A DNA stretch of 64,000 nt, from assembly GCF_000597725.1 (NCBI RefSeq), contig NZ_JFBL01000007.1, positions 62,001 to 126,000 on the forward strand, written 5' to 3'. Position 1 is the stretch's first letter. The number at the start of each line of letters is the position of its first letter. The notes below the pieces were generated by a model. It was not told where the DNA came from and searched no databases. It saw nothing but the letters and a program-made list of their open reading frames with translations. Positions 2,369 through 59,952 of the stretch are shown here, piece by piece. This stretch comes from Sulfurospirillum arcachonense DSM 9755. Its GTDB lineage: Bacteria; Campylobacterota; Campylobacteria; Campylobacterales; Sulfurospirillaceae. The position numbers were made by a program, and so were the translations under genes.

Positions 2369-2392
2369 GGGTTACACTTTTACATGTAACCC
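2369..2392 (-). terminator. Hairpin in the mccA-mccB gap
   Basis: GGGTTACA and TGTAACCC form an 8-bp stem around an 8-base loop, followed on the minus strand by an A/T-rich run. It sits inside the operon, so it more likely protects the 3' end of mccA mRNA or reduces downstream expression than ends transcription. The stem includes part of a TTACATGTAA palindrome (2380-2389), the only intergenic copy I found in this window. Confidence 0.55.
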
Positions 2393-2415
2393 CTTATTAT
2401 CTACATAAAAGTAGA

Positions 2416-4530
2416 CTATTTAGAAGCTTTCTCTAAAATTTGTTGAGCTTGCTCAACATAAGATTTAGCAGCTTTTGCTCTTCTCTCAGTGTATTTAAAT
2501 CCATGAACACCCCAAGAACCGTCTTTTTTGATTAAATCCATAGCATCTTGAGCTTTTTCAATTAACTCATTAACTCTTGATTTATCAGAAACACTTAACT
2601 TAGTAACATCTAGCATTTCATAGATTCCTTTTATAGAAACTGTTACTTCTGCATATAATTTCTTAATAGGTTTTTGCCATCCCATTACTTCATCATATAC
2701 TCTTTGCTGATCTTTAAAATGTAAAGTATTTTTAAGTGTTGACTGAACGATACTATGACAACCTTTGTTATCAACCATATCTTTATCTGCCCAAGATGTT
2801 TTACCACATGCCCACATCAAATCGATATAGTTATGTCCTTTTTCATTCTTAGCTAGATACCAGTTTTTATACTTTTTAGGAACTTGCTGAACTCTTGGAG
2901 CACCTGGAGGAGGATTCATTGTTTTGCTTTTTGCATCAACATTGATTTTCCAGATATGAGATCTTCTTTGAGTATCAAATCCAGCATGATCTTGATATTG
3001 AACAGCATAGAAGTTTTCACAACTCATTGTAAAAGGCATATGACATGACTTACAACTAACTTTGCTATGAGTATCTTTTGTGTTTTCTTTAATATACGCT
3101 GCTGCTTTGTGACAACTTTTACAATCTTTTCTGATTGCTGGTTTTGAATAAAAAGAACTTAGATAATCACCAGTATCTTGATAAACTCCACCTTTTTTAG
3201 CTGATTTAGTTTCAACATAACCTGTTACATCATGAGGATCATGACAAGTAGTACATCTCATACCAGCTTCATAATGCGCTGTAAAATAAGATTGTGAACC
3301 TTCTGTACCACAACCAGGGCCTGCTGATTTAAACTTAGAAGTCATTCCAAGTTCAGCTGCTCTATGACTTATAGCTGGGTTTTTAGATTTTCTAAATTTT
3401 TCAGCTAAAAATGGTCTAAAGCTAAATCTTTGATGACATCTCTCACAATTTGAAGTCATTAAACCTTGAGCACCATCTAAGTGACCACCAGCTCCATGAC
3501 ACTCTTCACAACTAATTCCTTTTGAAATTGTGTGATCATGTAATTTTTTTGCATCACCTAATGCAGAATAGAACTCTTTTTTATCTTTAAAGTCAAATTT
3601 CCATGGATGACATACTTGACAATAAGATGAAGCAGCTTGAATTGACATAGATTTTTTATATCTTGCAGAATATGAAGCCAAACCTCTTACATATCCACCA
3701 TTATCTCCATGTTCTTTTAATGTAACAGGAAATTCAGGAATAAATTTTCTAATTTTCTTAGCAACTTCTGGGGTTAAATCATTGGCCCAAGTTCTCTGAA
3801 ATTGATTTGCACCAGCTACAATTGTACCTGTTTCATCTTTGAGTAAACCACCAACTACATGATAAGTTCCTCTAAGTAACCATTTATCAAAAAATCCTAA
3901 CTTTGTTCTAAGATGTCCTACGGTAGCATATATGCTATCAGTTGTGACTCCTTTAGGAAGTATTGAAGCAGTATTTTTGCCGAATACTGACTTTTCTAAA
4001 TCATTACTTACTTCTGGATGCTCACCTGGAAATCTGATTGTGGTTGAGTGTCTTGAACGACTCCATTTTTCATACTGTACAGCATGACACTCTCCACATT
4101 TTTCTGGTCCAATAAACTTATTTGGGAAAACCAATGGATCTTGTGTTGGAAGACGATACATAGTTGCAGTAATACCTTTTCTCTTACTGTACTTTTGAAA
4201 GTCTTTCCCGTTTCCTGCATGAGAAAACTCTAGCCCACGATCCACAGATTTTAACTTACCTACAACTTTACCCTTAGGCAAATAAGTTTTAAAAATTGGA
4301 TGATTTTTAAAAATCCAATCATATCTCTCTTTCTCTTCAACGATATAATCTTGAAGAGAAACTATACCTCTGGTAGCTTTTGTTCCATCTGGATTTGCCA
4401 TTATCTCTATAGCATCGTGGCTCATCTGTATGGTTTTTCCTTCTGTGCCAGAAGAAGCAATAGCAACACTTGTCGCTATACTCATACCTACCAATAAACT
4501 AAGCATTAACTTTTTGCTTAATTTTTTCAT
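2416..4530 (-). CDS. mccA: MccA, octaheme copper sulfite reductase
   Basis: Periplasmic terminal reductase that converts sulfite to sulfide in six-electron respiration. After a signal peptide (cleaved near VAIASS) there are seven CXXCH heme sites, beginning at C145, C304, C341, C362, C426, C470 and C493. There is also one CX15CH site, C575 to C591-H592. The CX15CH active-site heme is the hallmark of MccA and needs a dedicated heme lyase. Two extra cysteines, C407 (PGCGTE) and C504 (MSCEN), are 97 residues apart; the Wolinella enzyme binds Cu(I) with two cysteines about that far apart (from memory). Its 704 residues are normal for the family. The ribosome site is AAAGGAGG. It is the first gene of mccABCD. 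Confidence 0.96.
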   Translation of the reverse strand: MKKLSKKLMLSLLVGMSIATSVAIASSGTEGKTIQMSHDAIEIMANPDGTKATRGIVSLQDYIVEEKERYDWIFKNHPIFKTYLPKGKVVGKLKSVDRGLEFSHAGNGKDFQKYSKRKGITATMYRLPTQDPLVFPNKFIGPEKCGECHAVQYEKWSRSRHSTTIRFPGEHPEVSNDLEKSVFGKNTASILPKGVTTDSIYATVGHLRTKLGFFDKWLLRGTYHVVGGLLKDETGTIVAGANQFQRTWANDLTPEVAKKIRKFIPEFPVTLKEHGDNGGYVRGLASYSARYKKSMSIQAASSYCQVCHPWKFDFKDKKEFYSALGDAKKLHDHTISKGISCEECHGAGGHLDGAQGLMTSNCERCHQRFSFRPFLAEKFRKSKNPAISHRAAELGMTSKFKSAGPGCGTEGSQSYFTAHYEAGMRCTTCHDPHDVTGYVETKSAKKGGVYQDTGDYLSSFYSKPAIRKDCKSCHKAAAYIKENTKDTHSKVSCKSCHMPFTMSCENFYAVQYQDHAGFDTQRRSHIWKINVDAKSKTMNPPPGAPRVQQVPKKYKNWYLAKNEKGHNYIDLMWACGKTSWADKDMVDNKGCHSIVQSTLKNTLHFKDQQRVYDEVMGWQKPIKKLYAEVTVSIKGIYEMLDVTKLSVSDKSRVNELIEKAQDAMDLIKKDGSWGVHGFKYTERRAKAAKSYVEQAQQILEKASK

Positions 4531-6121: not shown

Positions 6122-7142
6122 AAAAAAATCTCTTTTTACTACAATTTATCTTTTTTTCATTCCCCTTGTTATCTTTGCTAGTATTGTTCTTTACATGTAT
6201 CACGAGGACAAAATCAAAGATATAGAACAAAATATTTTGTATCAAATGAAAGATTATACCTTTGATTTTCAAGGAGATACATTTTCTCTTGATATTGTAC
6301 AAGATGATAAACAAAAAAAACTATTTAAAATTTATCACTGTCAAGAAGGACTTTGTGCTTATTTTCAAATACCTTCTACTGGACCTTATCTTTTAAAAGT
6401 AATTTACGATAAACAAAAGTATAAAAAAATTTATCATGAATTTTTAGTAAAAATATTAAAATTTAGTGTTATTGTTTTCTTTTTACTACTTTTCCTTTCT
6501 ATCGGATTTGCTATGTACTCTATAAAGCCAATGAAAGAAGCTCTTCATCTTTTAGAAGATTTTTTAAAAGATTTAATTCATGATTTAAATACACCTGCAA
6601 CATCTATTTTGCTAAATTCAAAATTACTAAAAAAACGTGGAGATTTTGAAGAGATTGAACGAATAGAACTTAGTGCAAAAAATATTGCATCTTTATATAA
6701 AAATTTAGAATTTATGAGCCCAAATACAATAGTAAAAGATGAAACAATATCGCTTGAAGATTTAATTCATACAAAAGTTGAAATTCTGCAAAAACTTTAT
6801 CCTAAAATACATTTTACACAAAACACAACTCCCTTAGTAATTCAAAGCAATATAAATGGTGTTGAGCGTATTGTTGATAATCTTCTTACTAATGCGTGCA
6901 GATACAATAAAAAAGATGGCCTTGTAAATATCACTATTGAAAAACAAAAACTTATCATAGAAGATACTGGAATAGGCATTAAAAATACAAAAAAAGTATT
7001 TCAACGTTATTATAAAGAAACTACAAATGGTCTTGGTATAGGAATGAGTATCGTAAAACAACTATGTGAGACTTTAAATATAACAATTGATATAAAAAGT
7101 GTAATAGGAAAAGGAACAAAAATTATACTGGAATTTAAATAG
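6108..7142 (+). CDS. Membrane sensor histidine kinase
   Basis: A 344-residue kinase with an N-terminal membrane segment (about 10-30), a periplasmic loop of roughly 80 residues containing C78 and C83 (HCQEGLC), a second membrane segment (about 115-137), then the H box (LIHDLNTPATS, H158) and an ATPase domain with DTGIGI and GLGIGMSIVKQL. The start is a TTG at 6108 with AGGATA before it, overlapping the regulator stop by 14 bases; the nearby ATG at 6118 is in the wrong frame. There is no HAMP domain of normal length. The CX4C pair in the sensor loop might sense redox or bind a ligand, which is speculation. Confidence 0.88.
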   Translation: MKNYEKKSLFTTIYLFFIPLVIFASIVLYMYHEDKIKDIEQNILYQMKDYTFDFQGDTFSLDIVQDDKQKKLFKIYHCQEGLCAYFQIPSTGPYLLKVIYDKQKYKKIYHEFLVKILKFSVIVFFLLLFLSIGFAMYSIKPMKEALHLLEDFLKDLIHDLNTPATSILLNSKLLKKRGDFEEIERIELSAKNIASLYKNLEFMSPNTIVKDETISLEDLIHTKVEILQKLYPKIHFTQNTTPLVIQSNINGVERIVDNLLTNACRYNKKDGLVNITIEKQKLIIEDTGIGIKNTKKVFQRYYKETTNGLGIGMSIVKQLCETLNITIDIKSVIGKGTKIILEFK

Positions 7143-9721: not shown

Positions 9722-10969
9722 TTATTTTATATTATTTTTAGATATTACTTTGGCAACTACACTCTCTTTTTGGCTTTGTAGTTCAAAAATATCGTTTACA
9801 TGTAAAGCTTTAAGTGTACTTCTTTTCCCCTCCACTACGATTTGAGCAACGCCTTCTTTTAAAGATAAGCTAGGGTCACTTCCAGCGTATATGCCTTGCA
9901 GAGAATTAAGCATATTTTCTTTTACATGTAAGAGTTTTTGCATAGAAAAATTTAAATCATGTTGTAAATTATCAATGCTATTTTGTCTATTTTCAACTAA
10001 GTATTGAAAACTTTGCTCAAACCTTTTAGTGAGTAAATCCACCTCTTTTTCATTGATATCTATTTTTGATTCAAAAGAGTGTGTTATAAACATTTTGTTT
10101 AAAGAATCTAGTTTTTCTTGTTTGTTATAAATAACTCTTTTTATATAAGAGTTCAGAGTCTCACTCATATCATCAAGTCGCATAAGCATCTCTGTTTTAT
10201 CTGGAAGTACCATTTCCATCGCTGCACTTGGTGTTGGTGCTCTTAAATCTGCTACAAAATCACTAATCACATAATCAATCTCATGACCCACAGCGCTCAC
10301 CACAGGAGTCACACAATGAAACAGGGCATCTGCTACAACTTCTTCATTAAAGCCCCACAAATCCTCTATACTTCCACCACCACGCCCTACGATAATAACA
10401 TCTACATGTAAGGCATCTGCTCTTTGGATATTTTGTGCGATAATCTGTGCACTACTTTCACCTTGAACAATTGTATCAATAACAGTGATTTTGACTAAAG
10501 GCCAACGCTTACTCGCCACATGCAACATATCTTGCAAGGCTGCACCAGTCGCTGATGTAACTAAAGCTATAGAGTTAATACTCTTTGGAAGTACTTTTTT
10601 GTTTTCAAAATACCCTTTTGCTAAAAGTTTCTTTTTGAGTTGTTCATACGCAAGGGCTAAAGCACCTGCTCCTGCTGGTTCTATTTTTGTACAATTTATT
10701 TGATAACTTCCACGAGGAGTATAAACAGAAACTGAGCCATGAAGGACAACAGACATTCCTTCTTCAAGGCGAAATTTCATCTTCATAGCATTTGCGCGAA
10801 ACATCACACAAGAGATTGTCGAATTTTCATCTTTAAGAGTAAAATATACATGTCCTGAATTATGAAAAGTTATGCGAGAAACTTCTCCTTCAACACTTAC
10901 ATGTAAAAAAGTTGTCTCAAGTAGAGATTTAATCTGATTATTTAAACTTGAGACAGATAGAGAATTCAT
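9722..10969 (-). CDS. xseA: Exodeoxyribonuclease VII large subunit
   Basis: XseA, with the small subunit XseB, degrades single-stranded DNA to oligonucleotides. An OB-fold domain (from SVSSLNNQIKSLL) is followed by the catalytic region with the signature GRGGGSIEDLWGF, PTPSAAMEM and a long coiled-coil tail. I placed the start at the ATG at 10969 because family members begin just before this VSSLN element; an in-frame ATG 57 bases upstream (11026), overlapping ubiE, is less likely. The gene contains four TACATGTA palindromes in 1.1 kb, each encoding LHV at positions that vary in the family. Confidence 0.93.
   Translation of the reverse strand: MNSLSVSSLNNQIKSLLETTFLHVSVEGEVSRITFHNSGHVYFTLKDENSTISCVMFRANAMKMKFRLEEGMSVVLHGSVSVYTPRGSYQINCTKIEPAGAGALALAYEQLKKKLLAKGYFENKKVLPKSINSIALVTSATGAALQDMLHVASKRWPLVKITVIDTIVQGESSAQIIAQNIQRADALHVDVIIVGRGGGSIEDLWGFNEEVVADALFHCVTPVVSAVGHEIDYVISDFVADLRAPTPSAAMEMVLPDKTEMLMRLDDMSETLNSYIKRVIYNKQEKLDSLNKMFITHSFESKIDINEKEVDLLTKRFEQSFQYLVENRQNSIDNLQHDLNFSMQKLLHVKENMLNSLQGIYAGSDPSLSLKEGVAQIVVEGKRSTLKALHVNDIFELQSQKESVVAKVISKNNIK
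9796..10906. repeat. Cluster of four TTACATGTAA-type palindromes in xseA
   Basis: Copies lie at 9796-9805, 9922-9931, 10402-10411 (CTACATGTAA) and 10897-10906. All read LHV in the coding frame of the minus strand. Four copies of an octamer core expected roughly once per 24 kb in such A/T-rich DNA make this a dense cluster of the window-wide palindrome. Confidence 0.85.
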
Positions 10970-14619: not shown

Positions 14620-15779
14620 AGAGGTATTATTTTTTTACCAACTGCTGTTGTTGGAATTTTCTCAACAACTTTTAATTTGATAGGGAATTTTATATTTCCT
14701 ATCTTTTCTCTTAGTATCTTATTGATTTCTTTTAAACTTATCGCTTTTACACTCTCAAGATAGATTTCTAATGTTTCATCTTTTAATTCACCTTCATTGT
14801 ATTTAACTACAACAAAAGCTTTTTTTACACTACTCATACTCTCTAAAATCTCTTCTACATGTAGAGTTGAAAATCGTTTTCCAGCGACTTTAAATATCTG
14901 AGAATCTCTTCCTATGATTTTAAATCTCTCTCCTTCAAACTCAACATAATCAAAACTTTGAACTTCTTTATTGGTATTTTTAAAACCATCTTCATATAAG
15001 AGTTCAGAGATAAATGGTGAATTGATTTTTAAAAGACTTTTTTCATTGGTTGAGACTTTTACATTTGGAAGGGCTTTCCATAAAGTATCATTTTGTTCTT
15101 TATATGCTATTCCTCCTGTTTCAGTTGAACCAAAAAGTTGTATAAGATTGGTATTGAACTTTTCAATAAACTCTTTTGCACTTTTTTCATCAAGAGGGGC
15201 AGTTGAGCTTGCAAAAAGAACATCACTTAAATCCTTCGTTTCTCCAAGTCTTAAAAGAGATTTGATATACAAAGGAGTTGTTACAACAAACGAATTTGGT
15301 TCGATACTTTCAAGTAAATCATGTGGTAAAAAATGCTTTTTAAAAAAAAGATCTATTCCGGAAAGATAAGGTAAAATAATAGCTGTAAGAATTCCATAAA
15401 CATGAACAAAAGGTACAGTTGCAATAACTTTTTTAGGTTGGTACTGTTCTATTATTTTCATAAAACCTTTTACTTCTATCTCCAAATTTTCTTTCGTTTT
15501 AAAAGCTCCTACTGGTTTTCCTGTTGTGCCTGAACTAAAAAGCAACATAGAAAAATCAACATCTTTAAAATCCACTTCTTTTAAAAGCTCTTGAATACTT
15601 TGGTTTGATGCATCAAAGAGTACTTGTTTGACTCCATTTTTATACGCTTTTAAAATCTCTACGGCTGAGTTTTCTTTATCTGAAGAGTCAATATAGACTA
15701 TATCTTCCTCACTATTTTCAAACTTTTCAACATCATAAACTCTTCTGCTCAAATCATCATCTAAAATTTCAATTTTCAT
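14616..15779 (-). CDS. AMP-dependent acyl ligase of the aryl polyene type
   Basis: An adenylate-forming enzyme of 387 residues, short for the superfamily. Seen are the phosphate loop SSGTTGKPVG, ATVPFVHVYG, QLFGSTETGG and the C-terminal FKIIGRDSQIFKVAGKRFS hinge with a final TAVGKKI lysine. Aryl polyene loci contain a compact AMP ligase that activates the aromatic starter acid and loads it onto ACP, which is the expected role here. AAAGGAGAAGG precedes the ATG. It is the last gene of the second pigment unit, 74 bases after the MMPL exporter. A TCTACATGTAGA palindrome lies within it. Confidence 0.85.
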   Translation of the reverse strand: MKIEILDDDLSRRVYDVEKFENSEEDIVYIDSSDKENSAVEILKAYKNGVKQVLFDASNQSIQELLKEVDFKDVDFSMLLFSSGTTGKPVGAFKTKENLEIEVKGFMKIIEQYQPKKVIATVPFVHVYGILTAIILPYLSGIDLFFKKHFLPHDLLESIEPNSFVVTTPLYIKSLLRLGETKDLSDVLFASSTAPLDEKSAKEFIEKFNTNLIQLFGSTETGGIAYKEQNDTLWKALPNVKVSTNEKSLLKINSPFISELLYEDGFKNTNKEVQSFDYVEFEGERFKIIGRDSQIFKVAGKRFSTLHVEEILESMSSVKKAFVVVKYNEGELKDETLEIYLESVKAISLKEINKILREKIGNIKFPIKLKVVEKIPTTAVGKKIIPL

Positions 15780-15853: not shown

Positions 15854-17932
15854 TTATTCATTCTTATTCCCTATAACCAATAAAATAAATATAGCCAACA
15901 ATCCCAATGTTGCAACCTGACCTATATAAAACAACACTCCAATAGTGCTAAAAATCAATACCCCAAAACCAGCAAATGTACTCATTAAAGAGAACACTAT
16001 CGCTCTTTGGCTATTTTCATCTACCTTTTTTTCACTCATATATATCCCATAATCTATACTAAGAGAAACCACGACAAATAGCATAAAAATCTGCAGTATA
16101 TTCACATCTCCCAAAGAGATAATAAACAGTATCAAAGCAATAGGAAAAAGAATAAAACTCAGTGCTTTAAAAAAGTTTTCTCTGCTTACTCTTAAAAGAA
16201 TAAAAAGTATACTCAAAACGATTATAAATCCACATACAAATAACTCTTTATATACTAGCTTTAAGGATTTTTGAAAAAGGCTCGCTGAACTTACAAGATA
16301 AACTCCATCAGCCACTTCACCTTTTTTAACAAACCCAAAACTATAGTAAAATTCCCCATCAAACTCAACATCAAAACCATACTTTCGAATACTCTTTTCA
16401 TCTATATTAGGTTTTTGTGGACTCAGTAATATTTCAGGATAACTCTTTTGAAAAAATCCCTTTCTAAAGCCTATGCCTTGTGCATGAGTAGAAATTTTTT
16501 CTTTTACATGTAAAAAATCAATCTCACTAAAAAGTTTGTGTTTTTTATCATACTCTTTTTTACTTATGAGATTTGAGAGAGGAACAATTGCATCTACATG
16601 TAAAGCTCTAAACTCGACACTTTTATCTATAAGACTTTCAAGAGTTTTAGCTTTTATGATAAAAGGAATTGTGTCTTTGTTTTGAAGTTTATTTGTAAAA
16701 AAGTTTTCTAATTTTTTTAGTTTTACATTGTCATAATCAAGACTTTTTATATTCAAATCCATCTTTACATGTAAAGAACTATAAACAATCACAGCCAAGA
16801 GAATAAAGACAAAATATTTATAATTTTTAAGCAAACTTAAATGTGGTATTTTTTGAGTTATCTCTTTACATGTAAAGCCAATTTTAGGAAATAAAAAAGT
16901 AAAAACAATATAAGAGTATCCTAATGAAATACAAGCATAAAAACTTACCTGTTTTATAAAAGCAAAATCGACAAACGATATGATAAAAAATGCTATAAAA
17001 GTACTCAAAAATCCATAAAAAACAGCCCTATTAAAGCCACTTTTTTTCTCGTAAAAACCACAAAAATAGTTGTGAAACATATAATCAATAGCGATAGTAC
17101 TAATCGCCATTCCAAAAACCATAACAAATATAGAAACTTCTCCATAAACAGAAGTAACTACCAATAAAGCAAGTATTGAAGCACTTAAAAGTGTCAATAT
17201 CGTGTTAAAAAGTAAAAAGATATTTTTCAAAATCACAACATATAAAAGTATCAAAATAGATAAAGCAATAAAAACTAAAAAGTTTACTTGTGATTTGATA
17301 ATCTTTTCATTTTGCACAAAATAGAAGATAGGACTAAAAACTTTGACATCCGCTTTTAACTCTTTTTCAAACACATTATAAACTTTTTGAAACTCCACTC
17401 CATTTTCAAAAGTAAAAATACTCATATATCCATAATCTTTGAGATAATAGTGAGCATTTTTAAACTCTATTGGGGTGTTGATTTTTCTGTTTGAAAAAAG
17501 CTCTAAAGGGTCATTCTTATCTATTGCGTTGTAATAGGGATTTAAGAGGATATTCTCATAACTCTTTTGTAATTTTACTTCAATATTTTCTAAATTTTTT
17601 GCATCAAAGTTTTGTAAATAAAACTGGTACTTTTTTATATACTCTCTATACTCTTTGTTGGTAAAAAAGTTTTTTTTGAGCTTTATAAAGGAGTTTTGTA
17701 AAACTCTTTTTTCAAGATTTTTTATATCTTTAATGTTTTCACTTTTGATAGCCACTAAAATTTCCCGAGAACTTTGAAAGTTTTCATATACTTTTAAAAG
17801 TTTTGTCTCTTCGTTTTGTGGTAAAAGGGATATGAGATTGGTTGAGAGTTTATTATAGGGGGCAACTACAAAAAATAAGCCCAAGAGTGCTAAAAATATA
17901 AGTATATTTAAATATTTAACGCAATGTTTCAA
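15854..17932 (-). CDS. MMPL/RND-family lipid exporter
   Basis: A 692-residue inner membrane protein with twelve predicted membrane segments in two similar halves: one N-terminal helix, a large periplasmic domain, then five helices, repeated. The first loop begins LSTNLISLLPQNEE, typical of MMPL proteins in aryl polyene loci. Its likely role is to move the finished aryl polyene lipid out of the inner membrane, handing it to the LolA-like carrier encoded just upstream. The TTG start overlaps the carrier gene by 17 bases. Four TACATGTA palindromes fall within 372 bases near the middle. Confidence 0.88.
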   Translation of the reverse strand: MKHCVKYLNILIFLALLGLFFVVAPYNKLSTNLISLLPQNEETKLLKVYENFQSSREILVAIKSENIKDIKNLEKRVLQNSFIKLKKNFFTNKEYREYIKKYQFYLQNFDAKNLENIEVKLQKSYENILLNPYYNAIDKNDPLELFSNRKINTPIEFKNAHYYLKDYGYMSIFTFENGVEFQKVYNVFEKELKADVKVFSPIFYFVQNEKIIKSQVNFLVFIALSILILLYVVILKNIFLLFNTILTLLSASILALLVVTSVYGEVSIFVMVFGMAISTIAIDYMFHNYFCGFYEKKSGFNRAVFYGFLSTFIAFFIISFVDFAFIKQVSFYACISLGYSYIVFTFLFPKIGFTCKEITQKIPHLSLLKNYKYFVFILLAVIVYSSLHVKMDLNIKSLDYDNVKLKKLENFFTNKLQNKDTIPFIIKAKTLESLIDKSVEFRALHVDAIVPLSNLISKKEYDKKHKLFSEIDFLHVKEKISTHAQGIGFRKGFFQKSYPEILLSPQKPNIDEKSIRKYGFDVEFDGEFYYSFGFVKKGEVADGVYLVSSASLFQKSLKLVYKELFVCGFIIVLSILFILLRVSRENFFKALSFILFPIALILFIISLGDVNILQIFMLFVVVSLSIDYGIYMSEKKVDENSQRAIVFSLMSTFAGFGVLIFSTIGVLFYIGQVATLGLLAIFILLVIGNKNE
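16504..16875. repeat. Cluster of four TTACATGTAA-type palindromes in the MMPL gene
   Basis: Copies lie at 16504-16513, 16594-16603 (CTACATGTAA), 16765-16774 and 16866-16875. Three encode LHV and the last encodes FTCK, a different reading frame of the same DNA word. Use of two frames inside one gene points to a DNA-level rather than a protein-level constraint. Confidence 0.88.
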
Positions 17933-18350
17933 TCAAAATCCAATCATCATTTTGCATCTGTATTTTTATAAACTCTAAAATGTTCTCTTCTTTTTTATAC
18001 TCTACTTCTCTTATATAATCTCGTAAAATTCCAACAGGAGTCAAAACTTCTTTTGTTTGAATTTTTTTTATCTCAAAATACTCATTTAAAAGAGCTTCAT
18101 TACTACTATGAATCGCTTGTAATATCATATAAAAAGTTTTTCTTTGAAGATTTTCATCCTCTTTGAGATACGTAACTTTTTCTTCTTTTGGTTTTGTATA
18201 GACTATATCAATACTCTTTTCAAGAAAAGTGATACTTCCTTGAAACTCTATTTTTTTATCTATTGCATAAATATATCTCGTCTCTTTAAAACTCTCATTT
18301 GCATTTACATGTAAGACCAACAATAGTAGTATGAATAAAATTTTATACAT
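17916..18350 (-). CDS. LolA-like periplasmic carrier
   Basis: A 144-residue exported protein; the ATG at 18350 gives a clean signal peptide (MYKILFILLLLVLHVNANES), whereas the longer frame has no sensible start. The mature part (KKIEFQGSITFLEKSIDIVYTKP) resembles outer membrane lipoprotein carrier LolA, a component of aryl polyene clusters. It would ferry the polyene lipid from the MMPL exporter across the periplasm. The start overlaps the preceding membrane gene (ATGTATAA). A TTACATGTAA palindrome codes for LHV inside its signal peptide. Confidence 0.75.
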   Translation of the reverse strand: MYKILFILLLLVLHVNANESFKETRYIYAIDKKIEFQGSITFLEKSIDIVYTKPKEEKVTYLKEDENLQRKTFYMILQAIHSSNEALLNEYFEIKKIQTKEVLTPVGILRDYIREVEYKKEENILEFIKIQMQNDDWILIETLR

Positions 18351-25008: not shown

Positions 25009-26102
25009 TTTATTGTTCCAAAAAGGAGTGATGTATTATTTCCTCCAAAAGCAAAAGAGTTACTTAAAATATAATTTATCTCTTTTTCTTCTGCTTTTAA
25101 AACATAATTCATACCTTCAGCTTCTGGATATTCTAAATTGCTATTTGGCATTATTATCTGCTTTTGTAGAGACACCACTGAAAGTATAGCTTCAAGTGCA
25201 CCTGCAGCCCCTAAAGTATGTCCTGTAATAGATTTCGTAGAGCTTACTGGGACGCTTTTTCCAAACAGACTCTCTATTGCACTTATTTCACTGCTATCAT
25301 TTGCTTTTGTTCCTGTTCCATGTGCATTTATATAACTAATATCTTCAGGTTGCAAACCTTTACATGTAAGAGCATTTTGCATAGCTTTTTTTGCACCCTC
25401 AGGATTTGGTTGAGTCATATGAAAAGCATCAGAACTATAACCCACCCCACAAAATTCAACAGATGTATCTATTTGTTTATTTTGTAAAAGTAAAATTCCT
25501 AATCCTTCAGCCACATTCATGCCATCTCTATTTTTATCAAAAGGTTTACATCTATTAGCACTTAAAACACCAAGTGCATAAAATCCACCAACTGTTGTTT
25601 TACAAAGCGTATCATAACCAACTACTAAAACATTTTTATAAACACCTTTAGATATAACTTCATAGGCATAACCAAGTGCATTTGCACTCGACGTGCATGC
25701 TGTCGAAAATGATAAATCATCCTTAAATGTATATTTTTGTGATATTTTATAACTAATAGAATCTATTACATGTAAAGCTGGATTGATATTTTTATAACTA
25801 TTATCTTGAAAATATTTCTCTTCACTTAGTCTCATACCACCAACAGATGAGCCTATAACTAAAAGTGTCTCTTCAAAATTATCTAAATTACTATTTTTTA
25901 GAACTGTTCCAATTTCCTCTAAAAGAGATTTTTCAAGATCAACTTTAACTATCCCAATGCCTACAGTTTTATCTGCATAAAAAGTTGTACTTGTTTTAAT
26001 ACCACTTTTTTGTGTGCAAACTACTTTAAATAAATCCTCAGCATTTAAAGCAGCTGAGCATACTGCCCTATAAGAATTTACAAAAACCCTATTGATTTGC
26101 AT
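25005..26102 (-). CDS. Beta-ketoacyl-ACP synthase (FabF-like)
   Basis: A 365-residue condensing enzyme with a full catalytic triad: C136 (STACTSSAN), H261 (NAHGTGTKAND) and H295 (SITGHTLGAAGA). It should extend the aryl starter with malonyl-ACP. It is shorter than FabF (about 410). It overlaps the ACP gene by 14 bases and the chain length factor gene by 4. Two TTACATGTAA palindromes lie in it, one read as LTCK and one as LHV. Confidence 0.92.
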   Translation of the reverse strand: MQINRVFVNSYRAVCSAALNAEDLFKVVCTQKSGIKTSTTFYADKTVGIGIVKVDLEKSLLEEIGTVLKNSNLDNFEETLLVIGSSVGGMRLSEEKYFQDNSYKNINPALHVIDSISYKISQKYTFKDDLSFSTACTSSANALGYAYEVISKGVYKNVLVVGYDTLCKTTVGGFYALGVLSANRCKPFDKNRDGMNVAEGLGILLLQNKQIDTSVEFCGVGYSSDAFHMTQPNPEGAKKAMQNALTCKGLQPEDISYINAHGTGTKANDSSEISAIESLFGKSVPVSSTKSITGHTLGAAGALEAILSVVSLQKQIIMPNSNLEYPEAEGMNYVLKAEEKEINYILSNSFAFGGNNTSLLFGTIK

Positions 26103-29479: not shown

Positions 29480-31048
29480 TTATGCTTTTAAATGTTCCCT
29501 ATATTTTGCTATCTGTTTATCTGTATATACCAAATAGGGATCGCTATAAGGCACTCCTTCTATGTGTTCATAACCTTTAGTAGCAACTAAACCTTTAATA
29601 TCTTTTAGAGTTACTATTTGGCTTTTAAATCCAGCTTGACTAAGGGCTACTCTCACTGTATGAAGTGACGTAGAACAAACAAGAACACCATCTTCATGAA
29701 GTAAATCATGGAGTATTTTAAAAACTTCAATACTTACCATAGAAGGATTTTTATCTTCACTAAATGGGTCTAAAAAGATAACATCAAATTTCTCATCAAG
29801 TTTTCTAAGACTATAGCGTATATCTCCAACAATAAACTCTAGGCTATTGTTTTCATCACTATAATAACTTTTCTCATAAAGAGCATGAAGTAAGGGATTA
29901 TCTGCTTCTTTTAATATACTTCTATCTTGGTCAAGTGCTTTTACATGTAAAGAATTTTTTTTCTTTAGTTTTATAGCTTCAAGTGAATTAATTCCATAAC
30001 CAAAGCCTATATCTAAAAGTTTTACATCCTTACATGTAAGGCGTTTTTGTAAATCTGATTTGTCGATAAAAAGCTTTTTAGCCTGTGCTTTTGCTCCACT
30101 TCTTGGATAGTAAAAATCTTTATATTTTTCACTCCAAAACTCACGATTAGTATCTGCTTTTCCATATCTGTACTGCATAGCTTGTACTATATACTCTCCA
30201 AATTGTCCTTTTTCCATATACCACAGAGGTGCTATTAAATCTTTATTAGGAGTATCCGTTGCGATTCTTATAATAGGGATATTTGAAGGTATCAATCTTA
30301 ATAAATATATAAGTTCTTCTGCATATTCATACTCATCAAATATTTTAAATTTTCTCTTTGTATACTCATCGTGCAGTTGCGTATTTTTGATTACATGTAG
30401 ATTATGAATCTTAATACCATCTACTTTACATGTAACAAGTTTTTTTACTGTATGTTCCCAATCACATCTGTTTTCATTTGGAAGTCCTACAATCACATGA
30501 GCAAAAATTTTTATCCCATAACTTTGAAGTTTCTGTATCGCTTCAAGACTGCATTTGCTATCATGTCCACGATTGATTTTTTTAAGTGTTTCATCATTGA
30601 GGGTTTGAACACCAAGGTCTACTATGACATCTATCTCTTTATTTAACTCTTGCAGATATTTTAAAGTCTCATCACTCAAACAATCAGGTCTAGTTCCTAT
30701 GCTAATCGCATCAAAATCGTGAAATTTTAAAAGTTTTGAGTAAGTCTCTTTTTGCTGAGATAAAGTTGTAAATGTACCTGTATAAGCTTGGATATAAAGC
30801 ATAAAATGCTCTGCTTTATATCTTCTTTTAGCAAATGCAACAGATTTGTGTATTTGCTCTTCTATACTTTTAGCATCCAGACTTTGGGCAGAACGAGCAC
30901 CATTTTGCGGACAAAAAGTACACCCTCCACTGCCATCACTTTTTCTATTAGGACATCCCAAATCTAAATCAATAGGGATAGAGTAGAGTACCTTTCCATA
31001 AGTATCCATCATATAATTACGATAAGAATAATAGGGTAATTGACTCAT
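29480..31048 (-). CDS. Radical SAM protein (YhcC/TIGR01212-like) fused to an MnmC-like methyltransferase
   Basis: A 522-residue two-part protein. Residues 1 to about 320 match the YhcC-type radical SAM family: LDLGCPNRK and GGCTFCPQNGARSA give the cluster cysteines, followed by YIQAYTGTF, SIGTRPDCL and HVIVGLPNE. Residues about 340-515 form a Rossmann methyltransferase: LLDIGFGYGINSLEA, FDVIFLDPFSEDKNPSM and VLVCSTSLHTVR, which resemble MnmC-like tRNA methyltransferases. The parts are separate proteins in most bacteria. Four TACATGTA palindromes are clustered in the gene. Confidence 0.85.
   Translation of the reverse strand: MSQLPYYSYRNYMMDTYGKVLYSIPIDLDLGCPNRKSDGSGGCTFCPQNGARSAQSLDAKSIEEQIHKSVAFAKRRYKAEHFMLYIQAYTGTFTTLSQQKETYSKLLKFHDFDAISIGTRPDCLSDETLKYLQELNKEIDVIVDLGVQTLNDETLKKINRGHDSKCSLEAIQKLQSYGIKIFAHVIVGLPNENRCDWEHTVKKLVTCKVDGIKIHNLHVIKNTQLHDEYTKRKFKIFDEYEYAEELIYLLRLIPSNIPIIRIATDTPNKDLIAPLWYMEKGQFGEYIVQAMQYRYGKADTNREFWSEKYKDFYYPRSGAKAQAKKLFIDKSDLQKRLTCKDVKLLDIGFGYGINSLEAIKLKKKNSLHVKALDQDRSILKEADNPLLHALYEKSYYSDENNSLEFIVGDIRYSLRKLDEKFDVIFLDPFSEDKNPSMVSIEVFKILHDLLHEDGVLVCSTSLHTVRVALSQAGFKSQIVTLKDIKGLVATKGYEHIEGVPYSDPYLVYTDKQIAKYREHLKA
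29941..30435. repeat. Cluster of four TTACATGTAA-type palindromes in the radical SAM fusion gene
   Basis: Copies lie at 29941-29950, 30030-30039, 30391-30400 (TTACATGTAG) and 30426-30435. They encode LHVK, LTCK, LHV and VTCK in order, so the two permitted reading frames alternate. Confidence 0.88.
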
Positions 31049-37272: not shown

Positions 37273-37587
37273 ATGAGAGAATTAGAAAATTTTCTAAAAG
37301 TAGTGTATAACAATGATTTTGTTGAAGGCCATGAAGTTTTAGAAGACAAATGGAGAGAGTGGAAAAATATACCTAAAAAAAGAGAAGAGAGTTTTATCCT
37401 AAAAGGTCTTATCAATGGTTCGACTGCCTTAGCACTTAAAGTCATGAAAAGAACTGACCCAGCCAACCAAGTATGGGAAACTTTTTTAAAATACTCTTCT
37501 CTTATAGACAAAATAGATTCAAACTATACTTTACTTTACAAAGAAGCTAGAGAACTTCTACATGTAAAGTATAAAGAGTTTTTTTAG
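37273..37587 (+). CDS. DUF309 protein
   Basis: A 104-residue helical protein with the DUF309 core: FVEGHEVLEDKWREWKN followed by FILKGLINGSTALAL and NQVWETFLKY. The family is small, cytosolic and of unknown function. It has its own short upstream region next to the marR operator (divergent) and ends six bases from the convergent M14 peptidase gene. A CTACATGTAA palindrome codes LLHVK near its end. Confidence 0.85.
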   Translation: MRELENFLKVVYNNDFVEGHEVLEDKWREWKNIPKKREESFILKGLINGSTALALKVMKRTDPANQVWETFLKYSSLIDKIDSNYTLLYKEARELLHVKYKEFF

Positions 37588-42636: not shown

Positions 42637-43737
42637 TTATATATTGGTCTTTTGAAAATAGCTTAGAATAGTCGTCATCATTTTTATTCTTTGAATAAAC
42701 GAACTTTTTAATGCTCTTTCATTGTTTGTATGATCCCCATCACCAAAAGGACCGAAGCCATCAAGAGTTGTAACTCCCATGTGTGCCATTATATTAGCAT
42801 CACTTACACCACCTCTCCTTTGTGTATATATTCTTTCGTTAATTAGTCTTTCAAAAAGTCTTATTAACTCAAACTGTTTTTTATTCTCTTGCATAACATT
42901 TCTTTGAATTACACAATTTGCAGTTGATTTTGTTCCAGCCACATATGAAAAATCTGTAATTCTTTCTACTTCTTTTATAATACGTTTTTTTTCATCTTCA
43001 GTATTAAATCTAAACTCCATCATCATTTCACAATGAGGAGATACTGTATTGATACCTATTCCCCCTTCAATTTTCCCAACGTTAACAATAGTCCCTTTAT
43101 CAAAATCCATTAGTTTTGAATACTCTTGAAGTTTATATGCAGCTTCTAGATTTGCATTAATTCCTTTTTGGTATGAAGTACCAGCATGAGATGCTTTTCC
43201 TTCAACTCTTATAATATATCTTCCTACACCCTTTCTTGCAGTTACTAATTCAAGTTTTTCTCCTGCAGCTTCAAATACAAAACAGTAATCATAATTTTTT
43301 GCTAATGAAGAAGTCAAAAGAGAAGAATCATCACTACCTGTCTCTTCATCTGAAACTAATAAATAATCAATATTTGTTATTTTTTGATTTTGTTTGTATA
43401 TATTTCTAAGTGCTTCAAGTGCAACTATATTTCCACCTTTCATGTCGCAGACACCTGGCCCATAAATATACTCATCGTCTTCACTGAATCCTTCAAAATA
43501 GCCATTTGGGAAAACTGTATCATTATGTCCTAAAAGCAATATATTTGGTAAATTTTCTTTTTTCGGGCTTACATGTAAATGATGATCACCTATAAGTTCT
43601 CTGTTATAAGTAATTGTTTTAAATCCTAACTCTTCTAACCATCCAGACATAATTTGACTCACTTCATCTACACCAGCTTTATTTTGCGTATATGAATTTA
43701 TAGTAACGATTTTTTCTAAATCTAATAGATACTTCAT
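42637..43737 (-). CDS. M20-family metallopeptidase
   Basis: A 366-residue peptidase like carboxypeptidase G2: LLGHNDTVFP (HxD), GPGVCDMKGG (bridging Asp), SDEETGSDDSS (Glu base and ligand), the dimerisation domain with KASHAGTSYQKGINANLE, and a final histidine in GDGDHTNNERA. It is cytosolic with no signal. It is the first gene of the operon and probably removes or recycles a residue of the peptide made by the ATP-grasp enzymes. Confidence 0.88.
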   Translation of the reverse strand: MKYLLDLEKIVTINSYTQNKAGVDEVSQIMSGWLEELGFKTITYNRELIGDHHLHVSPKKENLPNILLLGHNDTVFPNGYFEGFSEDDEYIYGPGVCDMKGGNIVALEALRNIYKQNQKITNIDYLLVSDEETGSDDSSLLTSSLAKNYDYCFVFEAAGEKLELVTARKGVGRYIIRVEGKASHAGTSYQKGINANLEAAYKLQEYSKLMDFDKGTIVNVGKIEGGIGINTVSPHCEMMMEFRFNTEDEKKRIIKEVERITDFSYVAGTKSTANCVIQRNVMQENKKQFELIRLFERLINERIYTQRRGGVSDANIMAHMGVTTLDGFGPFGDGDHTNNERALKSSFIQRIKMMTTILSYFQKTNI

Positions 43738-43807: not shown

Positions 43808-43814
43808 TTTAATA

Positions 43815-43847: not shown

Positions 43848-43854
43848 ACTTATA

Positions 43855-46391: not shown

Positions 46392-46394
46392 GTT

Positions 46395-48995: not shown

Positions 48996-49009
48996 ATGGT
49001 CCAGTCTCC

Positions 49010-49273
49010 TTAATTGTGCTCTCGCACTTTGCTTGAGAAAAAATCCCCAAACTCTTCTAATTTTTTATATTTTAATTTAAATTTACTATTTATTACTCGT
49101 ACTATGCGTTTCTCATCGAGTTTAAAACAATCTAAACACATATAACAACTACGACCTACTTTTGAAAATTGGGTTACTTTTCCATTATTTATTTGAAAGC
49201 GGGTTAGAGTGTTTTGTTCAAATCGTCCTCTACAGATAATACACATTCGTATGGGTTTTTTTAATTTGCACAT
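49010..49273 (-). CDS. ylxR: YlxR (DUF448) RNA-binding protein
   Basis: An 87-residue protein with the YlxR pattern: [34 protein letters not shown]. It carries two cysteine pairs and is encoded next to infB in many bacteria. YlxR has been linked to RNase P in some species. Confidence 0.85.
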
Positions 49274-49298
49274 GATTATACCAAAATTAAACTGTTTT

Positions 49299-50183: not shown

Positions 50184-50192
50184 TAAACCCCT

Positions 50193-53570: not shown

Positions 53571-54509
53571 TTATAGTGCTTTTATTTGGTCTGTTATCTC
53601 TTTACATGTAGCTTTTGTATCACTACTATTCACATTAAAACCCGCTGCACCCTTATGTCCACCGCCATTATACATAATAGAAATTTTGGATACATCTATA
53701 TCTCCATCTGAACGTAATGAAATTTTACAAAATTCATCTTGGGCTAAAACCATCAATGCTACTTTCACATTAGCTATATCTCTTAACATACTAATAATAT
53801 TTTTAGTATCACTTCTTTTTGCTCCAGTCTCTTCTAAAATCTTTTTATCAAATATGATTGAAGCTATAGTAGCATCTACATGTAACTCAAAATTACTCAA
53901 CATATAGGCTATTAATCTAATCTTTGCTAAAGATTGTCTACTTTTTACTTTTTGTGCTATCTCTTGTGCATTTGCTCCACATCGAATAAGCTCTGCTGCT
54001 GCTTCAAAAGTTTTTTCATCAACTCCACCATATCTAAAAAAATTTGTATCTTCAGCTATGGATGTATAAAGTGATATTGCACTCTCTTTTGGAATATCAA
54101 TATCATTTTCTTTTAAAAGTTTATACACAACCATACCAGCACTAGAAGCTTCAGGTAATACTATGTTAATATCACCAAAAAGTTCGTTACTTTTATGATG
54201 GTCTATATTGATAATTTCAAAATCACCTTTTTTGATTTTCAATCTATCTAAACTTCCACAATCACAGCTTACTAACAAATCAAAAGATTTAGGAAGTTTA
54301 TTTTGTATCTTAGAGTAACCTTCTAAAAAATCAAACTCTTTTGGTAATTCTTCTTTAGTCTCATTAAATAATGAAACCCTACATCCCACTTTTTTCAAAA
54401 CACTATACAAACCTAGACTAGAACCAATCGTATCTCCATCTGGATGTACATGAGAAACTATAACAGTGTGTCTTGCACTTATAATTTTATCCCATGCTTT
54501 TTTATACAT
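53571..54509 (-). CDS. DHH phosphoesterase, NrnA-like
   Basis: A 312-residue DHH/DHHA1 protein: SHVHPDGDTIGSSLGLY, NIDHHKSNELFGDIN, FRYGGVDEKTFEAA and a C-terminal GGGHKGAAGF. NrnA-like enzymes cut short RNA (nanoRNA) and pAp to mononucleotides. No oligoribonuclease gene (orn) is in this window. TACATGTA palindromes occur at 53602, 53876 and across its start codon (54504-54513). Confidence 0.88.
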   Translation of the reverse strand: MYKKAWDKIISARHTVIVSHVHPDGDTIGSSLGLYSVLKKVGCRVSLFNETKEELPKEFDFLEGYSKIQNKLPKSFDLLVSCDCGSLDRLKIKKGDFEIINIDHHKSNELFGDINIVLPEASSAGMVVYKLLKENDIDIPKESAISLYTSIAEDTNFFRYGGVDEKTFEAAAELIRCGANAQEIAQKVKSRQSLAKIRLIAYMLSNFELHVDATIASIIFDKKILEETGAKRSDTKNIISMLRDIANVKVALMVLAQDEFCKISLRSDGDIDVSKISIMYNGGGHKGAAGFNVNSSDTKATCKEITDQIKAL

Positions 54510-54570
54510 GTAAACTCCGTCTATTTAAAAGCTGTTAGTATACTTAACTTAGTATAAATTTTAGGTTATT

Positions 54571-55347
54571 CTACAAATTAAAGTTAAATAAATAGATAAC
54601 GAACTTATATAAAACAAACAAAAATAGTAGAGGAAACAAAATAGTTTGAAATAAAAAAATAATTATCAAATCAACTATATGTTGACCAGTACTTTCTATA
54701 AGTCTCTCAAAATCTAAAAGTTTCTTTTTATAGTATGAAGATGAAAAATAACTTGCTTTGCTATCATCAAACTTATCTATTTTTTCTTTTGCATTATGCA
54801 CTATATTTTGAGATACTTTTACACTATATTCTTGTTCTACAAAATTTACATAAACATATTCATTAGCATAACTCATAAAAGGAATACTAAATCGTAAAAA
54901 AATCAAAACAAAAGTAAATTTAAAAAATAACCTTCCTTTGAGTTTATCCTTATAAAAATAAACTACATTTGCCATAAATAAAATACAAATCAGTACTATA
55001 TCAAAACCATTACATGTAACTATATTCATAAGAATTTTTTGTATCCCTAATGACGTTAAAGAAGCTAACATTACCCAAGAAAATTGTTCAACTAAATCAT
55101 TAATAGGATCTAACACTTCTCCTATGGTTATAGTAACTCCAGGAGGTCCTACTTCAGTTCCTTGCACTAAAGATATTGCTGCATTTAACGCTTTAGCACT
55201 CGCAAAAACGCTTACTGCTTGTTTAAAAGAAATATCAATCCTACTGTCTGTTTTCTCATCTATATTAGAAAATACAGATAAATATACCACTAAGATTGAT
55301 AAAAATAAAACTAAAATTTTATCCCAACTTTTTTTTATAATTTCCAT
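54571..55347 (-). CDS. Uncharacterised membrane protein next to flhB
   Basis: A 258-residue membrane protein starting at the ATG at 55347 (AGGAAC upstream). It has an N-terminal helix, a polar stretch with SFKQAVSVFASAKALNAAISLVQGTEVG, several central helices, a soluble loop (QNIVHNAKEKIDKFDD) and a strongly hydrophobic C-terminus. I do not recognise it. It lies right after flhB in the same operon. Its role in flagellar export is only suggested by position. Confidence 0.65.
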   Translation of the reverse strand: MEIIKKSWDKILVLFLSILVVYLSVFSNIDEKTDSRIDISFKQAVSVFASAKALNAAISLVQGTEVGPPGVTITIGEVLDPINDLVEQFSWVMLASLTSLGIQKILMNIVTCNGFDIVLICILFMANVVYFYKDKLKGRLFFKFTFVLIFLRFSIPFMSYANEYVYVNFVEQEYSVKVSQNIVHNAKEKIDKFDDSKASYFSSSYYKKKLLDFERLIESTGQHIVDLIIIFLFQTILFPLLFLFVLYKFVIYLFNFNL

Positions 55348-57253: not shown

Positions 57254-57255
57254 AT

Positions 57256-58248: not shown

Positions 58249-58334
58249 TATAAAATCCTCTTACATAATTATAAAGCTTAGCATTATAACAAATTATGTA
58301 TAATAATCTCCATATTTTTAACCCTAGGATTTAC
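58249..58334. promoter_or_regulatory. Divergent promoters for nadA and plsY
   Basis: A plus-strand TATAAT at 58299-58304 preceded by TG suits plsY; a minus-strand TATAAT (58289-58284) suits nadA, with a short leader leading to AGAGGA. No operator for a nicotinamide-sensing regulator is obvious. Confidence 0.55.
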
Positions 58335-58961
58335 ATGGAATTATTTTCAAATATTAATATTCAATTTTATATTATTGCGTACCTTGTAGGAGGCATCCCT
58401 TTTGGACTTATTTTAGCTAAAAAATTTAGCTCAATTGATATTAGAGAAAGTGGTAGTAAAAGTATTGGAGCTACCAATGTTTTAAGAGTTTTAAAAGAAT
58501 CAAATCCAACTTTAGCCAAAAAAATAGCTATCGCTACACTTATTTTAGATGCTCTTAAAGGCATGCTTGTTTTAATAATCGCTTCTATTTTAGACCTTAG
58601 CCATGAAACACTTTGGATGATTGCAATACTTAGTATAGTAGGACATTGTTATAGTCCTTATCTCAAATTTGAAGGTGGAAAAGGTGTTGCTACAGGATTT
58701 GGTGTTATGATTTATATGATACCTATAGAAACTCTAATCGCTTTTGCTGCTTGGTTCATCGTAGGAAAAGTCCTTAAAATTTCTTCACTTTCTTCACTTA
58801 TTGCTTTAATTGCATTAATAGTTTCATCATTTATCATTCATCCTGATATTCCTGTTATAAAAACTCATGCACCTATACTTATAATTTCATTTTTAATTAT
58901 TTATAAACATATACCAAATATCATGAGGCTCTTTAATGGAGAAGAATCTAAGGTTGTATAG
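58335..58961 (+). CDS. plsY: Glycerol-3-phosphate acyltransferase PlsY
   Basis: A 208-residue membrane enzyme that uses acyl phosphate in the first step of phospholipid synthesis. Motifs are GGIPFGLILAKKF, SGSKSIGATNVLRVL and KFEGGKGVATGFGV. I set the start at the ATG at 58335 (AGGA upstream), rejecting an in-frame ATG at 58296 inside the promoter. It ends overlapping the convergent M48 gene. Confidence 0.93.
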   Translation: MELFSNINIQFYIIAYLVGGIPFGLILAKKFSSIDIRESGSKSIGATNVLRVLKESNPTLAKKIAIATLILDALKGMLVLIIASILDLSHETLWMIAILSIVGHCYSPYLKFEGGKGVATGFGVMIYMIPIETLIAFAAWFIVGKVLKISSLSSLIALIALIVSSFIIHPDIPVIKTHAPILIISFLIIYKHIPNIMRLFNGEESKVV

Positions 58962-59952
58962 TCTCAAGAGAATTTTCTCTTAACTTTTTTGCCCTTTTAA
59001 ATAAAGAAGGATGAGAACTAAAATAACTGTTTTCATCCTTACTCACATTATGTTCCTTAGCAATTTTTTTAAATGTATTGGCTAGAGGAATTGTTGATAT
59101 ATGTAATTTATTTAAAGTCTTTATTGCTTCATTATCTGCTTCTTCTTCAAATTCTCTTGAGTATTTAGAATATAAAAGGGCTGAAGATATAGTTGCTACT
59201 CCATCAGTTATGTCACCACTAAAAAGAAATATTACTATTGAAGATAAAGATGTCTGTACTATATTTTTTAAAGAGTGCTTTTTATCTATATGAGCTATTT
59301 CATGTGCAAAAATACCCGTAAGTGCATCTTGATTAAAATTGGTTAATTCTGCCATTTCATCAGTTATTATGATGTACCCATTTGGCAAAGCTAAAGCATT
59401 AGCTCCAATCCATTTTGAACTACTTCTTATAAAGAGTTTATACTCTTTTTGTTTATTAATTCTATTAAAAGAATTTTGGACTAATTTTTTTTGATTTTTA
59501 CTAAGCCTTGAGTTAAAAAGTAAATTTTCATCAATATATTCAAAACTCTTTTCTCCAATATATTTTACATAGCTTTTAGGGACTACTGGAGCAATAATAG
59601 AAGCTATAAAATGCGTTCCATGAAAAAAATATCCATACAACAAGAAAACTATTGTAAATAAAAAAATTACTGAATATTTCATTTTACTTTCAAGTAAATG
59701 AACTATATTACTTTTTTTGGTATGTTTTTGAAGATACTCATCTACCTTATCATTGTCACTAATTTCAAGTGTAAATTGATCTTCTTTTTCCATAATTCTT
59801 GGGATATTTGCAAGTCTATCAGAGATACTAAGTTCATTTAACTTTACATGTAAAGATAAATCTTTACCTTTTATATGGACATTTCCATCTTCTAAAAACG
59901 ATACATCCACCTCCGTAGATGTAGTATTATGCAATAATCCTTTAAGTATCAC
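58948..59952 (-). CDS. M48-family metallopeptidase
   Basis: A 334-residue membrane protease with the zinc motif HEIAH (GIFAHEIAHIDKKHS) and a third ligand in FEEEADNEAI. A cytosolic N-terminal domain of about 90 residues and one membrane helix precede it (FLFTIVFLLYGYFF), an arrangement seen in M48 proteins linked to DUF898 genes. The GTG start overlaps the DUF898 stop as GTGA, so they are co-expressed. Confidence 0.88.
   Translation of the reverse strand: MILKGLLHNTTSTEVDVSFLEDGNVHIKGKDLSLHVKLNELSISDRLANIPRIMEKEDQFTLEISDNDKVDEYLQKHTKKSNIVHLLESKMKYSVIFLFTIVFLLYGYFFHGTHFIASIIAPVVPKSYVKYIGEKSFEYIDENLLFNSRLSKNQKKLVQNSFNRINKQKEYKLFIRSSSKWIGANALALPNGYIIITDEMAELTNFNQDALTGIFAHEIAHIDKKHSLKNIVQTSLSSIVIFLFSGDITDGVATISSALLYSKYSREFEEEADNEAIKTLNKLHISTIPLANTFKKIAKEHNVSKDENSYFSSHPSLFKRAKKLRENSLETIQP

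Follow-up and report, generated by a model that had tools for sequence, protein, structure and literature searches.

A short palindrome, the decamer TTACATGTAA with its octamer core TACATGTA, recurs throughout the genome of Sulfurospirillum arcachonense DSM 9755 as a lineage-specific iterated palindrome. It is a DNA word that the core genome maintains at a cost in codon and amino-acid choice. It was noticed in a stretch of 64,000 nucleotides, hereafter the window (contig NZ_JFBL01000007.1, positions 62,001 to 126,000; G000:C7:62001-126000), G000 being the window's own genome of 2,656,384 bases. Handles such as G000 and G026 denote genomes, and those such as L055 denote loci. Our best guess is that the word serves as a self-DNA (uptake) signal. 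Works cited by PMC number are drawn on in extract.

Excess beyond codon and protein expectation

The window holds 17 decamers, against a mean of 0.24 (largest 2) in 100 dinucleotide shuffles, and 28 cores, against a mean of 1.24 (largest 5). Counted by pattern over the whole of G000, the decamer occurs 567 times (3 for the reversed letters) and the core 1,124 times (54 for the reversed control), while codon and location statistics come from samples. A null in which the proteins are fixed and synonymous codons shuffled was applied to samples of G000 and of G026, a genome with 1,724 cores. The 62 predicted open reading frames (ORFs) of the window contain 26 coding cores where 5.25 +/- 2.07 are expected (200 shuffles, largest 12); 451 kb of coding DNA in G000 contain 175 against 43.2 +/- 5.3, and 456 kb in G026 contain 194 against 18.2 +/- 3.8, the excess thus being 4- to 11-fold. 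This null is conservative, since the word has already altered the proteins: the tripeptides LHV and TCK are inflated about sixfold over composition, with 18 LHV against 2.2 and 6 TCK against 1.0 in the window, 94 against 17.1 (reversal VHL, 11) and 47 against 7.1 in the G000 sample, and 137 against 22.8 and 44 against 7.4 in the G026 sample.

The excess of both tripeptides agrees with the view, taken in an earlier sequence-only reading of the window, that two reading frames are used; by its own tally about 17 copies read as LHV and 8 as TC(K/N/R). Its argument that protein selection is insufficient as a cause also holds, coding cores being far above the codon-shuffled expectation. Contrary to the two outcomes that it had named as damaging, the counts in the sampled 18% of the genome greatly exceed the codon-aware expectation and the excess extends beyond the window. 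Two features of a highly iterated palindrome (HIP) were found, namely gross genome-wide excess of a palindromic word and, in the samples of G000 and G026, an excess for which neither codons nor proteins account; a third, a methylase for the word or its centre wherever the word is frequent, was not (see below). That it is a DNA word selected for itself is supported further by its spread through the family and by conservation above that of the flanks in most comparisons.

A pattern count of the window confirmed all 17 decamer starts exactly. The 11 further cores that had been proposed are all there as well, giving the total of 28, but their starts had been placed one base early (6191 for 6192, and so on). 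The sites, each a pattern match with no strand assigned (strand.), are as follows.

2380..2389, strand., TTACATGTAA, intergenic
6192..6199, strand., TACATGTA core
9796..9805, strand., TTACATGTAA in xseA (gene identified by the analysis)
9922..9931, strand., TTACATGTAA in xseA
10403..10410, strand., TACATGTA core in xseA
10897..10906, strand., TTACATGTAA in the xseA ORF
14856..14863, strand., TACATGTA core
16504..16513, strand., TTACATGTAA in ORF 15854-17932 (ORF call)
16595..16602, strand., TACATGTA core in ORF 15854-17932 (ORF call)
16765..16774, strand., TTACATGTAA in ORF 15854-17932 (ORF call)
16866..16875, strand., TTACATGTAA in ORF 15854-17932 (ORF call)
18305..18314, strand., TTACATGTAA
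18481..18488, strand., TACATGTA core
25360..25369, strand., TTACATGTAA
25766..25775, strand., TTACATGTAA
29941..29950, strand., TTACATGTAA in MnmL-type radical SAM gene (gene identification)
30030..30039, strand., TTACATGTAA in MnmL-type radical SAM gene
30392..30399, strand., TACATGTA core in MnmL-type radical SAM gene
30426..30435, strand., TTACATGTAA in MnmL-type radical SAM gene, its core 35 bp start-to-start after the preceding core
37559..37566, strand., TACATGTA core
43569..43578, strand., TTACATGTAA
50491..50500, strand., TTACATGTAA
53603..53610, strand., TACATGTA core
53877..53884, strand., TACATGTA core
54505..54512, strand., TACATGTA core
55010..55019, strand., TTACATGTAA
56593..56600, strand., TACATGTA core
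59844..59853, strand., TTACATGTAA

The MnmL-type gene (29480-31048) is a single ORF made up of an MnmL/YtqA-type radical SAM part (TIGR01212) and an MnmC2-like methyltransferase part, the latter matched below cut-off. Elsewhere in the window (20667-22184) lies an aromatic amino-acid ammonia-lyase-like gene, to which models of histidine and flexirubin-type tyrosine ammonia-lyases matched below their cut-offs and which perhaps belongs to a pigment cluster.

Distribution and dialects

All 37 genomes of the sulfur-metabolising Sulfurospirillum family that were searched carry the decamer (6-1,496 copies, in many species from hundreds to more than a thousand), compared with 0-6 copies in 23 genomes of 21 other families. 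The core reaches at least five times its reversed control in 33 of the 37, the exceptions being G009 (28/25), G016 (109/50), G017 (104/25) and G025 (92/22), and numbers 2-23 in 12 genomes of other families. Decamer and core may part company, as in G001, which has just 22 decamers yet 484 cores. By translation factor IF-2, the nearest named matches to G000 are four Sulfurospirillum assemblies, one of them labelled S. arcachonense, at 75-83% identity, followed by other Campylobacterales at 58-59% over the full length and one partial match at 65%.

The words vary by lineage in the bases around a constant CATG centre. G008 has a mixture of CTACATGTAG and TTACATGTAA, and CTACATGTAG is also carried by locus L077, whose genome counts are the same as those of G001. 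In G009 the TACATGTA excess is replaced by 1,216 copies of WTCATGAW, whereas among the nine other members of its genus TACATGTA exceeds ten times its control in seven and stands at four times in G017 and G025. Two genomes drawn from Campylobacterales records, G064 and G065, have 2,179 and 1,246 WTCATGAW, which locally takes the forms TATCATGATA and TTCATGAA. In the remaining 54 handles (G060 being a repeat of G001) the count lies between 47 and 503, and because of this wide background and a widely varying reversed control only these three genomes are claimed as outliers. A further genome, G066, labelled Sulfuricurvum and with 53% GC in a 6.5-kb locus, has 1,253 TACATGTA against 26 reversed, while four other Sulfuricurvum records have 16-33.

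Mobile DNA carries the word to a varying extent. Two S. diekertiae plasmids have 0.34-0.35 cores per kb, against 0.57 per kb in a chromosome sample of G007, which is probably S. diekertiae itself, as the methylase on its second contig (see below) sits at coordinates identical to those on plasmid NZ_CP059996.1. On both plasmids a gene for an S24/LexA-like repressor and its surroundings have five TACATGTA in about 870 bp (L268 20440-21420, L269 27900-28800). Viral contigs gave scattered matches, with five or more cores in 10 of at least 125 loci; site contexts were examined in 11 loci and ORFs in three (L281, L296, L301), and these three look phage-like, with a few repeated, operator-like sites. 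In L296 seven TTACATGTAA lie inside a longer TCTTACATGTAAGA palindrome, and are perhaps operators of a phage repressor that shares its core with the bacterial word.

Conservation and loss

With the cores of G026 as reference, and bearing in mind that pooled groups may count one G026 site repeatedly, 37 of 39 are intact in G030 (flank identity 0.93), 19 of 25 in G032, G011 and G024 (0.85), 65 of 79 in G007, G034 and G020 (0.81), 16 of 18 in G014 and G035 (0.75) and 9 of 12 in G022 (0.77). Lower figures were obtained for G033 (4/13; 0.73), G018 (4/16; 0.86) and G016 (3/57; 0.79). Control octamers of equal GC are intact in 27-34% of cases in G007, G034, G020, G016 and G018. At conserved sites identity is raised to five or six bases from the dyad and is near background at seven. 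A comparison based on G000 gave 13 of 20 aligned cores intact in genus g2 (flank identity 0.66; controls 14%), 4 of 6 in G004 (controls 21%) and 2 of 4 in G003 (controls 9%); G002 and G005 yielded no aligned sites.

A FastTree tree built from 22 joined proteins pairs G016 with G018 (support 0.999) and groups these two sisters with G026 and G030 (0.986) among the rich genomes. As the pair is nested among word-rich genomes, G016 and G018 have lost the word. At the former core positions of G016 identity is 0.60-0.75 each, below the 0.79 of the flanks, a divergence that would fit either faster loss or a location of these sites where proteins tolerate change.

Anatomy, spacing and placement

The form of the word was derived from 464 kb of G000 (the window plus 20 stretches; 204 cores). 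The preference extends eight bases from the dyad, with T at -5 (0.72) and -6 (0.67) and C at -7 (0.43), fading at -8, which gives the extended consensus (Y)CTTTACATGTAAAG(R); the flank halves were pooled, so that symmetry of the flanks is an assumption of this count. The word is a perfect palindrome in symmetric excess; its TACATGTA core is rigid, and a looser palindrome of 14-16 bp surrounds it. Decamers with a single change are clearly enriched at the outermost base only.

The same sample bears out the short-range clustering that had been noted, 43 of 183 gaps being below 250 bp where 19 are expected. The long gaps seen in the window (30,435-37,558 and 43,578-50,491) are real but not unusual, 15 of the 183 gaps exceeding 5 kb against 20 at random. 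In G026 eight decamer gaps measure 20-39 bp (1.9 expected), four of them 20 bp, and three of these four pairs have a nearly identical linker.

That nearly all copies lie inside genes is true of the window, but in the larger sample they are some three to four times denser between genes: 0.39 cores per kb of coding DNA against 1.09 in non-coding DNA and ORF edges in G000, and 0.44 against 1.61 in G026. By simple ORF calls, intergenic cores per kb in G026 number 3.83 in convergent, 1.92 in co-directional and 0.72 in divergent regions, and in G000, with 5, 18 and 9 sites only, 1.76, 1.20 and 0.98. A role as transcription-factor operator was rejected, divergent regions being the poorest intergenic class in both genomes. 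Terminator-like stems were likewise rejected as the main location, since they enclose 4 of 73 intergenic sites in G026 (37 of 2,880 control positions) and none of 32 in G000. Three of the 24 G026 stretches are poor in cores (1, 2 and 5 per 20 kb) and are the most AT-rich (GC 0.33-0.35); one more has 5 cores, and the other 20 have 8-16. As two of the three poor stretches lie near the change in GC skew at about 1.7-1.8 Mb, a terminus effect may contribute. An intergenic element of about 145 bp in G026 (L055 3375-3520), apparently rich in short hairpins by eye, is present in several copies at 82-88% identity in many of the Sulfurospirillum-type genomes searched, and one copy directly adjoins an inverted pair of the word.

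What may keep the word

We tentatively suggest, as a possibility somewhat short of an even chance, that the word identifies DNA as the cell's own at some sequence-specific step of natural transformation. A symmetric receptor, dimeric and possibly reading methylation, would favour DNA with the word of its lineage; recombination of the favoured DNA would then spread and repair copies wherever coding allows, and an altered receptor specificity would move the whole genome to a new word. Such a signal would account for the non-coding excess, the dialects with a constant centre, the tolerated loss and switching, and the placement where coding allows, while the palindromic form suggests a symmetric reader. 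A precedent comes from C. jejuni, a member of the order, whose uptake is limited to DNA that carries a motif methylated by CtsM, according to extracts of PMC8468864. As for features associated with uptake sequences, the non-coding excess is present, the AT-rich stretches of G026 are poor in the word and the plasmids are only moderately below the chromosome. Transformation machinery is likewise present, ComEC in 35 and a secretin in 34 of the 37 family genomes. A wider version is somewhat more doubtful: that the family has a palindromic self-DNA code in dialects, with CATG constant, the outer bases lineage-specific and the receptor symmetric, which arose in or passed to the distant Campylobacterales genome G066 and can be switched within a genus.

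Several observations weigh against an uptake signal. The oriented, non-palindromic form of uptake signal sequences (USS) and DNA uptake sequences (DUS) is not shared by this word; those of Haemophilus and Neisseria are non-palindromic (Bakkali, PMC1939737, in extract). In H. influenzae 764 singly mismatched copies accompany 1,471 exact ones and are somewhat over-represented, though below expectation (same extract), whereas changes within the core do not rise above background here (35 in G000, where about 36 are expected). Terminator-like stems around intergenic sites are rare in G026 and G000, and mobile DNA is not free of the word, as the two plasmids of S. diekertiae show. Most pairs of genomes, but not all, display strong conservation, G001 with its 484 own cores keeping only 2 of 17 aligned cores of G000 (controls 18%). 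No receptor for the word was identified among the families searched (ParB, ComEC, secretin, methylases), and no experiment on the word was found in the literature. Genomes in which the word is absent or lost (G016, G018, other families) have ComEC and secretin just as often, and in G010, with its 1,019 cores, no secretin match was obtained. Both ComEC and secretin are nearly universal and hence uninformative as discriminators. The ComEC of G001 (G001:C44:6870-7655) has an in-frame TAG.

An explanation that we regard as unlikely, yet better than the others below, is that the word is a true HIP, which owes both its creation and its upkeep to methylation of the CATG centre by a solitary M.HpyAI-type (CATG) adenine methylase, through repair, replication or recombination, as proposed for HIP1. 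Every comparably strong word found contains CATG, and a solitary D12 adenine methylase of 320-345 amino acids is full length in 27 of the 37 family genomes, among neighbours that vary and are mostly of housekeeping type; no nuclease was recognised among the first neighbours, inspected by eye. Its closest annotated phage matches, with identity of up to 48.5%, are called 'ulcer associated adenine specific DNA methyltransferase', a name that hp1208 presumably also bears. M.HpyAI (hp1208) is the CATG methylase of H. pylori in the extracts of PMC3936762, so that CATG specificity of the family enzyme is predicted by homology only. Of the genomes reached through named records, all three that are unplaced and have a word centred on CATG (G064, G065, G066) possess the gene, and none of the four Sulfuricurvum records does; matches of more than 500 bits occur in 3 of the 23 genomes from the order's other families. 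In the motif-poor G018 both usual neighbours are in place with the methylase exactly missing between them (L214 4841-5621).

Within the family, however, the distribution of the gene does not match that of the motif. Of the 33 motif-bearing genomes 24 have it at full length, as do three of the four others (the cut being TACATGTA at five times the reversed control or more); G008, counted as lacking it, has a 93-amino-acid fragment, G016 has only weak pieces of a larger protein, and it was not found in G000, G001, G012, G018, G023, G028, G029 and G033. G000, despite its 1,124 cores, has neither a PF02086 nor a PF01555 methylase, the two families searched (for PF01555 in 37 genomes, G000-G022 and G037-G050), while G040, G056 and G058 have the methylase but neither a TACATGTA excess (3, 8 and 15 cores) nor outlying WTCATGAW. 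The preference over 14-16 bp also exceeds the recognition length of D12/M.HpyAI-type methylases, which read shorter sites. As a strict rule the presence of the methylase thus fails, and with the gene missing from G000 and eight other motif-bearing members methylation is not established as the cause; the enzyme is rather a possible partner. A hot spot of the word in the methylase gene was also rejected, cores being at 0.31 against 0.70 per kb (26 of 30 loci; G040, G058, G056 and G009, without this word, were left out). Chromosomal copies of the gene have few cores; a plasmid copy (L268 1692-2732) has four TACATGTA and runs into an IS21 transposase gene.

We consider it quite unlikely that the word is bound genome-wide by an abundant dimeric protein that organises the nucleoid or chromosome, in the manner of Noc, MatP or SlmA. 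The two-fold symmetry, the 14-16-bp footprint with soft edges, the short-range clustering, the genome-wide spread and the low density at divergent promoters would all suit such a protein, as would the TTT-NNN/NNN-AAA layout, which resembles that of Noc sites, but the copy number is far above that of such organising systems, which have far fewer sites. For sites acting together, moreover, the switch of more than 1,000 sites within a genus (G009) and the loss in G016 (3 of 57 intact) are hard to explain. A Noc/ParB paralog as reader was rejected, there being no full-score second ParB in the family genomes: each has one strong match, except G027, in which none was found, and a second, weak one occurs only in G004 and G007.

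Campylobacterota, to our knowledge, lack MutS/MutL mismatch repair. That the word is a functionless by-product of biased repair or gene conversion is improbable: gain, loss and switching do appear easy, and Elhai considers such an origin possible for HIPs (PMC4390886, in extract), but the strong conservation of single positions across species and the protein bias need a force beyond creation.

Comparison with known systems

The best-known iterated words are those of cyanobacteria, Neisseriaceae and Pasteurellaceae, and the present word is an independent case in another phylum. No earlier report of it was found among the listed open-licence papers on Sulfurospirillum uptake, palindromes, competence or methylomes, most of which concern other bacteria, and this is weak evidence of absence; in full text no paper was found to contain TTACATGTAA, and only a single one, on an oomycete, TACATGTA together with palindrome and genome context. 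The purpose of palindromic iterated words such as HIP1 has yet to be settled (PMC4390886). In the Sulfurospirillum family the question of what keeps such a word is directly testable, because a natural series is at hand: genomes that are rich, poor, lost or switched, a sister pair that lost most of the word, and one distant genome that shares it. The effect reaches the proteins (LHV 137 against 22.8 in the G026 sample). Species of the Sulfurospirillum group are used in dehalogenation work, and a word that helps DNA to enter or persist would therefore be of practical use.

The word resembles Noc and ParB sites in being a palindrome of similar size; those sites are fewer, and the family has no full-score ParB paralog. 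With HIP1 (GCGATCGC) and the alternate cyanobacterial HIPs it shares the very high copy number of a palindrome, alternate words in relatives and a central methylase site (PMC4390886). Unlike HIP1, it has an AT-rich 8-bp core with a preference over 14-16 bp, is denser between genes and belongs to another phylum, and the methylase link fails in G000 for the families searched. The CtsM motif of C. jejuni, from the same order, serves self-DNA discrimination tied to an adenine methylase, but in contrast to the Sulfurospirillum word it is short and degenerate (RATTY; PMC8468864). The likeness to DUS and USS lies in copy numbers of similar magnitude (1,124 cores in G000 and 1,724 in G026; 1,471 in H. 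influenzae), in the non-coding excess and in lineage dialects with a constant core (PMC3630211, PMC1939737), the dialects of Neisseriaceae having CTG in common (PMC3630211). The Sulfurospirillum word differs from these in that it is palindromic, that its core is not accompanied by enriched one-off variants and that it does not lie mainly in terminator-like stems. If it is indeed a self-DNA signal, USS and DUS would be joined by a third kind of uptake or self signal that is enriched throughout the genome, one that differs from both in being palindromic.

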